Below, piece by piece: positions 3,976 through 59,167 of a stretch of DNA of 64,000 nt; position 1 is the stretch's first letter, and every line of letters starts with the position of its first letter. The notes beneath the pieces were generated by a model. The model did no database searches, was not told the DNA's origin, and saw nothing but the letters and a program-made list of their open reading frames with translations. The translations under genes were made by a program, and so were the position numbers. This stretch comes from Clostridia bacterium (GTDB taxonomy: Bacteria; Bacillota; Clostridia; Oscillospirales; Acutalibacteraceae): NCBI GenBank assembly GCA_017406805.1, contig JAFQXU010000032.1, positions 20,290 through 84,289 on the forward strand, read 5' to 3'.

Positions 3976-4278
3976 TTAATCCGGATCAAAAGGAACTAAA
4001 TTTTCATCCGGGAACAATTCAACATTTGCGGATTCTGCATCTTCCGAAATATCATCATCTGAATCATGCTTTATAATTTCGATGCTTCCATTTTCAAGAC
4101 CATATGCATGCCCGTGCGCTTTTTTACCGCCTACATTAAGGTGTATATCCATATCTCGAGATAAATCGTCAATTATAGTTGCACTATTAAAATGTCTTCC
4201 ACCTATTGTAAGCCCTCCAGCAACTCTTCCTAATTCATCCATATCAAGTTTTTCTACTTTTTTCTTTTTATCGTCCAT
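3976..4278 (-). CDS. Small acidic protein with double-glycine-like leader, unknown function
   Basis: 100 residues. The N-terminus is basic (DDKKKKVEK) and runs into LDMDELGRVAGG at 11-22, which has the L-x(3)-E-L-x(2)-V-x-G-G shape of double-glycine leaders in bacteriocin and other ribosomal peptide precursors. The remainder is mostly polar, with a strongly acidic tail (DSDDDISEDAE) ending PFDPD, and has no transmembrane stretch. RBS CGAGGTG. Last gene of the minus-strand locus 8243-3976, 14 bp after the membrane protein gene. Whether the GG is really cleaved is unknown; no peptidase-type ABC transporter is in the window. It could instead be an ordinary small cytosolic protein. Confidence 0.75.
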   Translation of the reverse strand: MDDKKKKVEKLDMDELGRVAGGLTIGGRHFNSATIIDDLSRDMDIHLNVGGKKAHGHAYGLENGSIEIIKHDSDDDISEDAESANVELFPDENLVPFDPD

Positions 4279-56751: not shown

Positions 56752-57423
56752 ATGGATAAAAAATTAAACCATTCTAATTTTTTGGATTTGTCCCAAAGCA
56801 TTTCCAAAGAAATTTTTAAAAATTGTAAGTTCCCGTGGGAAGCAATCCCATTAATAAAAGAATTCGTAATAAATTTGGGAAAATCACTGCCAAAAGAAAA
56901 TTTTGAAGAAATAAAAGAAAATGTGTGGGTATCTAAAAACAACGTAAAAATTTACCCCTCGGCGCACATAGATGGCCCGGCAATAATAGACGAAAACGCA
57001 GAAATACGCCACTGCGCCTTTATAAGAGGAAGCGTAATTATTGGAAAAAACTGCGTTGTGGGGAATTCCACAGAATTAAAAAACGTTATTTTATTTAATA
57101 ATGTTCAAGTCCCTCATTTTAATTATGTTGGAGATTCAATTTTGGGGTATAAATCACATCTTGGAGCGGGTGCCATTACCTCTAATGTAAAATCAGACCG
57201 CTCTTTGGTAACAATTAAGCATAGCGGCGCTAAAATAGAAACAAATTTAAAAAAATTTGGAGCAATTCTTGGAGATTACGTTGAAGTGGGATGCAATGCA
57301 GTGCTTAACCCAGGAACAATAATCGGCAGAAATTCATCGATCTACCCTACAACGATGATAAGAGGCATTATAGAAGAAAACACCATAGTTAAAAACACCG
57401 GCGAAAAAGTGAAAAAAATATAA
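56752..57423 (+). CDS. Left-handed beta-helix acyltransferase-like protein (GlmU C-terminal type)
   Basis: 223 residues. A helical N-terminal part (1-55) precedes hexapeptide repeats (about 58-215). VPHFNYVGDSILGYKSHLGAG at 120-140 and AITSN at 141-145 match the GlmU acetyltransferase block, with His122 at the position of the catalytic His and Tyr125 nearby. It could acetylate glucosamine-1-phosphate and so complete the short GlmU at 20570, or be one of the uncharacterised UDP-GlcNAc-pyrophosphorylase-related proteins of Firmicutes. No ribosome site is at normal spacing; the palindrome at 56721 lies between. Confidence 0.82.
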   Translation: MDKKLNHSNFLDLSQSISKEIFKNCKFPWEAIPLIKEFVINLGKSLPKENFEEIKENVWVSKNNVKIYPSAHIDGPAIIDENAEIRHCAFIRGSVIIGKNCVVGNSTELKNVILFNNVQVPHFNYVGDSILGYKSHLGAGAITSNVKSDRSLVTIKHSGAKIETNLKKFGAILGDYVEVGCNAVLNPGTIIGRNSSIYPTTMIRGIIEENTIVKNTGEKVKKI

Positions 57424-57429
57424 AAAATA

Positions 57430-57452
57430 CGGCAAGGATTTTTTCCTTGCCG
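57430..57452. terminator. Bidirectional terminator, copy A
   Basis: CGGCAAGG (57430-57437) pairs with CCTTGCCG (57445-57452), between the beta-helix gene and peptide gene A. Confidence 0.85.
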
Positions 57453-57460
57453 CTTTTGAA

Positions 57461-57685
57461 CTATTGTTTTTTAAATAAATTTGCAGTTTCTCGAATAACT
57501 TTGTCATATAAATTATCGCCGTGGTTGCTTTCTTTATAAACATCGTTGGCAAATTTTCCTATAAATATAGCACTTGCTATTAAAGTAGCAACTAATAATA
57601 GTTTGTTTACTATTTTTACAGCATCGCCACCTCCGGAAATAAGTTCAAGCTCTTCATTTGATAATGCTTTAATGTTTTCGCTCAT
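57461..57685 (-). CDS. Double-glycine leader peptide A (bacteriocin-like precursor)
   Basis: 74 residues. Leader MSENIKALSNEELELISGG matches the double-glycine pattern (L-S-N-E-E-L-x-x-I-S-G-G), cut after Gly19 by peptidase-containing ABC transporters in known systems. The core of about 55 residues has a long hydrophobic stretch (KLLLVATLIASAIFIGKF) and a charged end. RBS GGGAGTG and a perfect promoter (57720-57748). No transporter or immunity gene adjoins it. A class II bacteriocin or pheromone-like peptide is the best guess. Confidence 0.85.
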   Translation of the reverse strand: MSENIKALSNEELELISGGGDAVKIVNKLLLVATLIASAIFIGKFANDVYKESNHGDNLYDKVIRETANLFKKQ

Positions 57686-57719
57686 TATATAAACACTCCC
57701 TTCTTTGTATTGTAACTTA

Positions 57720-57748
57720 ATTATAACATAAAGAAAATTGCTTGTCAA
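57720..57748 (-). promoter_or_regulatory. Promoter of peptide gene A
   Basis: TTGACA (57743-57748), 17-nt spacer, TATAAT (57720-57725) on the minus strand; same layout as copy B. Confidence 0.85.
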
Positions 57749-57753
57749 TATTT

Positions 57754-57888
57754 TTATGATTTTTTTACACCAATTAAGACTCTTGTTATTTCGTTTATGT
57801 CTTTTGCGCTTTTTATTCTCTCCATGCCATGCATTTTCATTATTTTCTTTACGTCTTCAACCTGACCCGCACCTATTTCAAAAGCCAT
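57754..57888 (-). pseudogene. 3' fragment of prmC left by tandem duplication
   Basis: 44 codons, MAFEIGAGQVEDVKKIMKM to LIGVKKS, closely matching the C-terminus of the intact PrmC at 58313 (MAFEIGAGQAEDVKK...). The rest of the gene is missing upstream; similarity fades after about 57911. It begins with an ATG by chance (Met is internal in PrmC), has no ribosome site, and cannot make a functional enzyme. Confidence 0.88.
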
Positions 57889-57960
57889 TAACTTTTAATT
57901 TTTGAATCTTTTATATACTGAAAAACACCAGCAAAAAAGTGAAAAAATATAAAAAAATCA

Positions 57961-57983
57961 CGGCAAGGATTTTTTCCTTGCCG
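57961..57983. terminator. Bidirectional terminator, copy B
   Basis: CGGCAAGG (57961-57968) pairs with CCTTGCCG (57976-57983); the duplicate of the hairpin at 57430. It ends peptide gene B. Confidence 0.85.
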
Positions 57984-58046
57984 GTTTTTAAAATTAAATA
58001 ATAAACTATTTTGACCTTTGTTTTTTAATACATGCTTTATTTATGA

Positions 58047-58244
58047 TTATAACTTATTCTTATTAAAAATATCATAAATACCTTTTCCAAATAGGCTTAA
58101 AAATGCAAGGCCACCAAAAACACCAGCTACCTCTACTATTCTCCATGTTACTTTAGCAACTTTTTTAACGACTTCACCTGCAGTCACTCCACCGGAAATA
58201 GCTTCAAGCTCTTCATTTGATAATGCTTGAATGTTTGCGTTCAT
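58047..58244 (-). CDS. Double-glycine leader peptide B (bacteriocin-like precursor)
   Basis: 65 residues. Leader MNANIQALSNEELEAISGG differs from peptide A at only a few positions, but the 46-residue core is very different (VTAGEVVKKVAKVTWRIVEV, then AGVFGGLAFLSLFGKGIYDI), with a GxxG-type hydrophobic helix typical of class II bacteriocins. RBS AAGGAGTG and perfect promoter (58279-58307). The promoter -35 lies 6 bp past the prmC stop. Could form a two-peptide system with A. Confidence 0.85.
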   Translation of the reverse strand: MNANIQALSNEELEAISGGVTAGEVVKKVAKVTWRIVEVAGVFGGLAFLSLFGKGIYDIFNKNKL

Positions 58245-58278
58245 TATATAAACACTCCTTTCTTTGTATTGTAACTTA

Positions 58279-58307
58279 ATTATAACATACTAGAAATTTT
58301 TTGTCAA
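58279..58307 (-). promoter_or_regulatory. Promoter of peptide gene B
   Basis: TTGACA (58302-58307), 17-nt spacer, TATAAT (58279-58284) on the minus strand, directly behind the prmC stop codon. Confidence 0.85.
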
Positions 58308-58312
58308 CATTT

Positions 58313-59167
58313 TTATTGCTGTTTTTTTACGCCAATTAAAACTCTTGTTATTTCATTTATATCTTTGAAGCTTTTTATTTCATCAAAGCCATTCATTTTC
58401 ATTATTTTTTTTACGTCTTCAGCCTGACCAGCGCCAATTTCAAAAGCCATTATCCCGCCGCGTTTTAATTTAGAAATCCAAAATTTGCATATTTTTTTAT
58501 AAAAATCAAGCCCGTCTTCCCCACCGCTAAGCGCTAAGATTGGCTCTTTTTTTACTTCTTCTTCCAAACCTTCAATTTCTGAATTTTTTACATACGGCGG
58601 ATTAGAAACCACTGCATCTAAACTTTCGTCATCAAATTTCTTGTAAATTTCAAAAACATCAGCGTTAATAGGCAAAACGCCGCTTCTATTATCTTTAATA
58701 TTTTCATTCAAATATTTAAATGCCTTTTCAGAAATCTCCACCGCGTAAATTTTAGGACTATTATTTAATTTTTTATCAAGCAAAATTGCAACACACCCAC
58801 TACCACTGCATAAATCGGCAATATATGGGCTGTTTTTTTTACTTAAAATTTTAGTACTTTCTTCCACAAGCACAGACGTATCTTCCCTTGGAATTAATAC
58901 CCCTTCGCCAACTTTAAATTTCAGGCCCATAAATTCCCAAGACCCTAAAATATACTGAAGTGGTATGTTTTTTTCTCTTTTAGAAATTATTTCTTTTACC
59001 TTTTCGTATGCTCCGTTTTCTATGGCTCCCCCACCATTTACCAAAAGCGAAACCCTATTCATTTTAAAGTAATGCTCAAATATAATGCCGGCCTCCGTAC
59101 GGAAGTCAGCTTTTTTGATTTTCTTTAAATTTTCTTTTGTAAATTCATAAAGTTCATGCCATGTCAT
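58313..59167 (-). CDS. prmC: Release factor glutamine N5-methyltransferase
   Basis: Methylates the Gln of the GGQ motif in RF1 and RF2 (RF2 is at 2809). 284 residues. N-terminal helical domain, LGSWEFMGLKF and VLIPREDTSVLVE, SAM motif ADLCSGSGCVAI, catalytic NPPY in VVSNPPYVKNSE. Its start overlaps the histidine kinase stop by 14 nt, making it the last gene of the lipoprotein-regulator-kinase operon. Its 3' end was duplicated (57754-57888). Confidence 0.95.
   Translation of the reverse strand: MTWHELYEFTKENLKKIKKADFRTEAGIIFEHYFKMNRVSLLVNGGGAIENGAYEKVKEIISKREKNIPLQYILGSWEFMGLKFKVGEGVLIPREDTSVLVEESTKILSKKNSPYIADLCSGSGCVAILLDKKLNNSPKIYAVEISEKAFKYLNENIKDNRSGVLPINADVFEIYKKFDDESLDAVVSNPPYVKNSEIEGLEEEVKKEPILALSGGEDGLDFYKKICKFWISKLKRGGIMAFEIGAGQAEDVKKIMKMNGFDEIKSFKDINEITRVLIGVKKQQ

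Follow-up and report, generated by a model that had tools for sequence, protein, structure and literature searches.

In the window (the whole 64,000-nt stretch of Clostridia DNA that was analysed), two small genes encoding double-glycine peptides, A and B, are located between two intact genes. The left flank is a hexapeptide-repeat (left-handed beta-helix) acyltransferase-like gene, hereafter hexapep (56752..57423, plus strand), which scored 57.4 bits against the Pfam Hexapep model (cut-off 27), the NCBIfam matches shown for it being all under their cut-offs; the right flank is prmC (58313..59167, minus strand; TIGR03534, 239.3 bits, cut-off 199.1). Read on the minus strand from prmC outward, the order of the parts is (i) promoter B (58279..58307), peptide gene B (58047..58244) and terminator B (57961..57983, found on both strands), (ii) a short, decayed second copy of the hexapep tail (57921..57954, plus strand), recognized from alignments, (iii) a novel junction (57891..57920) between this tail and (iv) a 137-nt 3′ fragment of prmC with an open frame of 44 codons (57754..57890), a scar of the repeat, and (v) promoter A (57720..57748), peptide gene A (57461..57685) and terminator A (57429..57453; a 10-pair stem with a T-rich tail). 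Both promoters, both peptide genes, the prmC fragment and terminator A lie on the minus strand.

Peptide A, deduced from an ORF and its translation, has 74 aa and consists of the leader MSENIKALSNEELELISGG and a 55-aa core of net charge +2, and the ORF of peptide B encodes 65 aa, with the leader MNANIQALSNEELEAISGG and a 46-aa core of net charge +4. Both leaders end at GG, in agreement with the preliminary description of this DNA, which took the peptides for double-glycine precursors, and both cores are Cys-free with a hydrophobic stretch. Each gene has a TTGACA-17-TATAAT promoter with TG before the −10 hexamer (12/12 match to the sigma-70 consensus). These were the sole 12/12 matches in the scan, in which promoter-like hits totalled 6 against a chance mean of 5.0 (not above chance) and terminator-like hits 3 against 0.7 expected. 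With its own promoter and terminator matches, each unit looks monocistronic in the window.

Comparison of the two units over six segments, with 300 shuffles per segment, confirmed that the tandem repeat in the window is real. The score exceeded that of 300/300 shuffles in the terminator block (identity 40/42), the leader DNA (50/57), the promoter with the 5′UTR (59/64, or 58/62 with slightly different ends) and the prmC tail (120/136), so that the matching parts of the units are 88–95% alike. In the case of the core coding parts (91/132, with 45 gap positions; shuffle mean identity 0.71), 25% of the shuffles scored as well, and therefore no similarity of the cores was detected; the sixth segment is a spacer of 3 nt, too short for such a comparison. 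The A/B spacing is 531 bp at the terminators, 559 bp at the leaders, promoters and prmC stops, and 562 bp in the inner prmC tail, because the intact prmC carries one extra codon at its end. The order of the parts, the similarity beyond chance and the scars at the inner junction are those of a tandem duplication, with the cores as the exception. The terminators, peptide genes, promoters and prmC ends, and the offsets of 531 and 559 bp, are thus as given in the preliminary description, which had also proposed that the units include the ends of both flanking genes; the inner junction indeed carries a prmC tail and a short hexapep tail, and the similarity reaches beyond the leader into the terminator, the promoter with the 5′UTR and the prmC tail.

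Of 39 genomes searched, 38 yielded prmC; within the genus it was detected in 10 of 11 genomes, with no match from G008. Within the searched stretch, hexapep lies beyond prmC in three of the ten genus loci, namely those of the window and of genomes G010 and G007, and the number of peptide genes at this junction varies from one to three. G010 has a single unit, a counterpart of B, the window has two, and G007 has three double-glycine peptide genes (P1, P2 and P3), of which P3 adjoins the intact prmC. The G010 peptide is identical to B at 61 of 65 residues; the differing codons (4/65) are all non-synonymous and all located in the core. The leader pattern revealed no peptides in the other seven genus loci (L008–L014), over approx. 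1.5 kb beyond prmC (0.6 kb for L008). A GG-leader-like ORF of 85 aa is present 3′ of prmC in L010, from a more distant member of the genus (G004). A scan of named genomes for prmC found it at five loci, of which two are close (93% and 81%) and the other three distant (33–36%). Family-wide, a profile built of six peptides had matches (E up to 0.01) in 10 of 398 genomes, strongly in the window genome (G000) and G010 only, and G007 was not among the matches listed; of 29 pattern matches on viral contigs, none was confirmed.

The relatives also bear on the age of the repeat, which had been ascribed in the preliminary description to a single duplication, with the two peptides diverging thereafter. 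Over the region, the window and G010 have a median identity of 94.9% (974 windows of 750 nt), i.e. a difference of approx. 5%, against 12% between the prmC tails of A and B (88% identity). Since the tails differ more than the genomes, the A/B split looks older than the split of the two genomes. In addition, the prmC tail of G010 is a mosaic: at the 21 sites that separate A from B, G010 agrees with A at the first 10, with B at the next 7, and with A, A, B and A at the last 4 (best-split permutation p = 0.013), the last three sites being located at an indel by the stop codon. In G010, prmC resembles A as far as fragment A extends, with identity over positions 57819–57890 of the fragment; over the 61 nt of prmC that follow, the window and G010 do not differ. 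Exact matches of 72 nt are common between the window and G010 (9797 of 50311 windows, 19%), and this one was therefore not used by itself. The identity of prmC between the two genomes is low, not extreme (91.1% over 58300–59050, rank 140/974), as is that of the tail alone (89.3%, rank 336/2501). The simplest reading of these data is that the prmC of G010 was converted by an A-like fragment, in which case the G010 lineage, or its donor, would once have held unit A.

Leaders and cores show different relationships. The leaders of A and B are 88% identical and those of the G007 trio 91–96%, compared with 75–82% across species. The upstream regions of A and B are 94% alike, and that of P3 is 83–84% like those of A and B and 74–79% like those of P2 and P1, for which no strong promoter match was found upstream. 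The upstream regions are thus not grouped by species, and homogenization is seen in the leaders only. The core of A is likely to be related to the core of P3: this pair scored 61 (shuffle mean 25), a value reached by 0/1000 shuffles and 0/2000 block shuffles, and the two are reciprocal best matches, with an identity of 11/49, whereas cores A and B scored 33 (p 0.017). Cores P2 and P3 scored 46, which was reached by 1/1000 shuffles, the cross pairs B-L059 and P2-L044 gave z values of about 6, and the mutual similarity of the P1, P2 and B cores is weak. The apparently older A/B split, the B counterpart in G010, the prmC mosaic and the proximity of core A to a G007 core suggest that the repeat probably arose in one of two ways: by a duplication that preceded the separation from G010 and was followed by conversion and loss, or by the joining of two divergent versions of the locus.

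Neither an exporter nor a recognized immunity gene adjoins the peptide genes, and the view of the locus as an orphan is upheld. The window genome (96.6% complete) contains one match to the C39 peptidase, on contig C2. The C39 gene passes TIGR03796 (899.4 over 853.3) and its partner TIGR03797 (717.8 over 709.4); a HlyD-like partner on the same contig is under its cut-off (101 vs 156.2). C39 matches occur in 11/11 genomes of the genus, in some of them more than once. The NHLP-type exporter genes on C2 (L054, G000:C2:12000-25253) have V-ATPase genes nearby, an ankyrin-repeat ORF lying in between. Visual inspection of 12 exporter loci showed an ORF whose start resembles V-ATPase subunit D in 6 of them. 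An ORF with a SPASM domain lies approx. 4 kb from the C2 exporter genes, which leaves room for modifying enzymes. One LANC-like match was considered as a linked lanthionine enzyme and rejected; it lies on contig C51, has two stops inside, falls within a RamC-like ORF and is unlinked to the peptides. This RamC-like ORF (L107; RamC_N and part of a LanC domain) is placed beside an MFS-like ORF and may be foreign to the bin.

A third unit elsewhere in the genome was sought and rejected, as a search with peptide A returned both genes and one weak match (E 0.25), and the leader-start pattern matched the window genome at two places, both in this locus. A wider double-glycine pattern matched it at six places (none in the reversed control): both genes, two double-glycine-like ORFs on contigs C20 and C21, and two sites inside unrelated-looking ORFs (C23 and C47). 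A regulon sharing the 5′ block was likewise rejected, the block being found (with 3 mismatches allowed) at four places in G000, G007 and G010, all in this locus. Another double-glycine-type ORF of 100 aa (3976–4278 of the window, minus strand; leader ...LDMDELGRVAGG) had no NCBIfam match at E up to 0.01. In locus L099 (G010:C32), two double-glycine ORFs whose leaders are similar and whose cores are not lie next to each other, and a near copy of one of them is present in the window genome (C20:445); in L092 (G153:C47), two ORFs share nearly identical long leaders ending AGG and have different tails. Since double-glycine ORFs are scattered (C20, C21, 3976–4278 of the window, and more in the genus), it is likely that one exporter serves scattered precursors, and we infer that the C2 exporter handles peptides A and B in trans.

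The short leaders ending at GG and the small, Cys-free, positively charged cores are those of class II double-glycine bacteriocins. However, the scores are under the cut-offs of Bacteriocin_IIc (PF10439; A 18.8 and B 17.5, cut-off 27.1) and of the NCBIfam bacteriocin leader TIGR01847 (14.3 and 14.8, cut-off 15.7), and the linked immunity gene and exporter of this class are absent from the flanks, which are hexapep and prmC, although the analysis could overlook small immunity proteins for which no family model exists. Class IIb two-peptide systems have both precursors in one operon, and here each gene would be transcribed separately, judging by its own promoter and terminator match. No match to the NHLP and Nif11 precursor families (TIGR03793, TIGR03798) was obtained at E up to 1.

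The best overall explanation, to which we assign a probability of roughly 0.55, is an old, copy-variable double-glycine locus between hexapep and prmC, with export in trans and with recombination that keeps the leaders alike while the cores diverge or are swapped. Each unit encodes a precursor with a 19-aa leader ending at GG. Removal of this leader and export of the core would probably be carried out by the single C39-peptidase exporter detected in the genome, which is of the NHLP type and located on another contig. The cores most likely act extracellularly on membranes as class II-like bacteriocins, with signalling as the second possibility. Both units would derive from a tandem repeat that predates the separation from G010, after which conversion between the prmC fragment and prmC may have occurred, the leaders would have been kept alike within a genome, the cores would have diverged or been exchanged, and unit A would have been lost in G010. 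Points against this explanation are the lack of a recognized adjoining immunity gene, the peptide scores under the Pfam and NCBIfam cut-offs, the low A-P3 identity together with the values reached by P2-P3 and the two cross pairs, the upstream regions that do not follow species, and the sub-cut-off HlyD-like partner; moreover, the mosaic comprises 21 sites in one gene end.

The chief rival to an old copy-variable locus is the joining, by one illegitimate crossover, of two divergent alleles from different strains, unit A bringing its own prmC tail and unit B its own hexapep tail. Fragment A retains the reading of a good PrmC C-terminus (14 of the 42 codons compared differ from those of B, 8 of them synonymously and 6 non-synonymously), as if it had diverged within a working prmC, and the position of P3 beside an intact prmC in G007 is consistent with such an origin. 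Nevertheless, the A-like tract in G010 ends where the fragment ends, which is easier to reconcile with conversion from the fragment than with inheritance from an intact A-type prmC, and we consider this history possible, but unlikely.

A different function, compatible with any of these histories, is that the peptides are signalling or developmental molecules and not bacteriocins. The absence of a recognized immunity gene, the strong promoter matches and the many double-glycine ORFs of the genus beside one or few exporters would suit this role. On the other hand, no locus-specific receptor adjoins the genes, and the neighbouring kinase-prmC pair also occurs in the seven other genus loci, which lack these peptides; we consider a signalling role possible, but less likely.

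It is somewhat doubtful that diversity is generated in a modular way in the gap between hexapep and prmC, a site at which gene conversion keeps the leaders alike in each genome, the cores represent an older, cross-species type polymorphism (A with P3), exchanged or lost, and the fragments of the flanking genes serve as homology handles. In that case, the prmC of G010 would preserve the trace of a unit A since lost.

A recent unequal duplication in place, with fast divergence of the peptides, as envisaged in the preliminary description, is improbable. The order of the parts and the scars of both flanking genes fit a single tandem duplication, but the flanks of A and B have diverged more than the window and G010, and G010 combines a B counterpart with A-type prmC sites; the grouping of core A with P3 of G007 likewise opposes such a simple history. 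An assembly artefact merging two strain variants in a metagenome contig is very improbable. In its favour, G010 and G007 are both bins from metagenomes, as the window genome may be, and perfectly duplicated blp regions proved to be artefacts in contigs (PMC4860687, in the text available). The copies in the window, however, are imperfect, unlike those, and the remnant of the hexapep tail is decayed. When the junction (57891–57920) was compared with the G010 contig and with the remainder of the window, the longest exact match measured 16 nt within the junction, 15 nt where it spanned the left edge and 10 nt where it spanned the right edge; such a junction is not easily produced by an assembler.

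The locus belongs to a known type, that of orphan double-glycine precursors, and it is known that bacteria diversify such peptides by means of matching promoters and leaders with unlike cores. Its most interesting features are the mosaic prmC and the discord between leaders and cores. It offers a small, readable case of orphan precursors multiplying beside housekeeping genes and probably feeding one distant exporter, and the presence of one, two or three genes at one place in the three relatives makes leader conservation versus core turnover directly testable in gut Clostridia.

Several known systems resemble this locus in part. Bacteriocins of the rumen have been surveyed (PMC13289728, as far as its available text goes), and class II precursors (PF10439) share with peptides A and B the leader grammar LSNEELxxISGG, the small Cys-free core and the hydrophobic stretch; the sub-cut-off scores and the absence of an adjoining exporter or recognized immunity gene set the present locus apart. 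The accessible part of PMC2887384 describes the NHLP exporter family, the expansion of paralogs and the pairing of conserved leaders with hypervariable cores; the exporter families TIGR03796 and TIGR03797 are common to the NHLP/Nif11 precursors and to the window genome, but the leaders of those precursors are long (nitrile-hydratase-like or Nif11), whereas those found here have 19 aa and match neither family. Prochlorosins, according to the portion of PMC10783134 at hand, are lanthipeptides modified by the ProcM enzyme, unlike the Cys-free cores A and B, yet they too combine a conserved leader with hypervariable cores, and one processing system serves many precursors. In the blp locus of Streptococcus pneumoniae, for which recombination among double-glycine bacteriocins is reported in the excerpted text of PMC4860687, the genes are almost wholly confined to one regulated locus with the BlpAB exporter, in contrast to the orphan units and distant exporter found here; as at the hexapep/prmC junction, its double-glycine peptides have a few leader types and are diversified by recombination, and some of its genes are duplicated in some strains.
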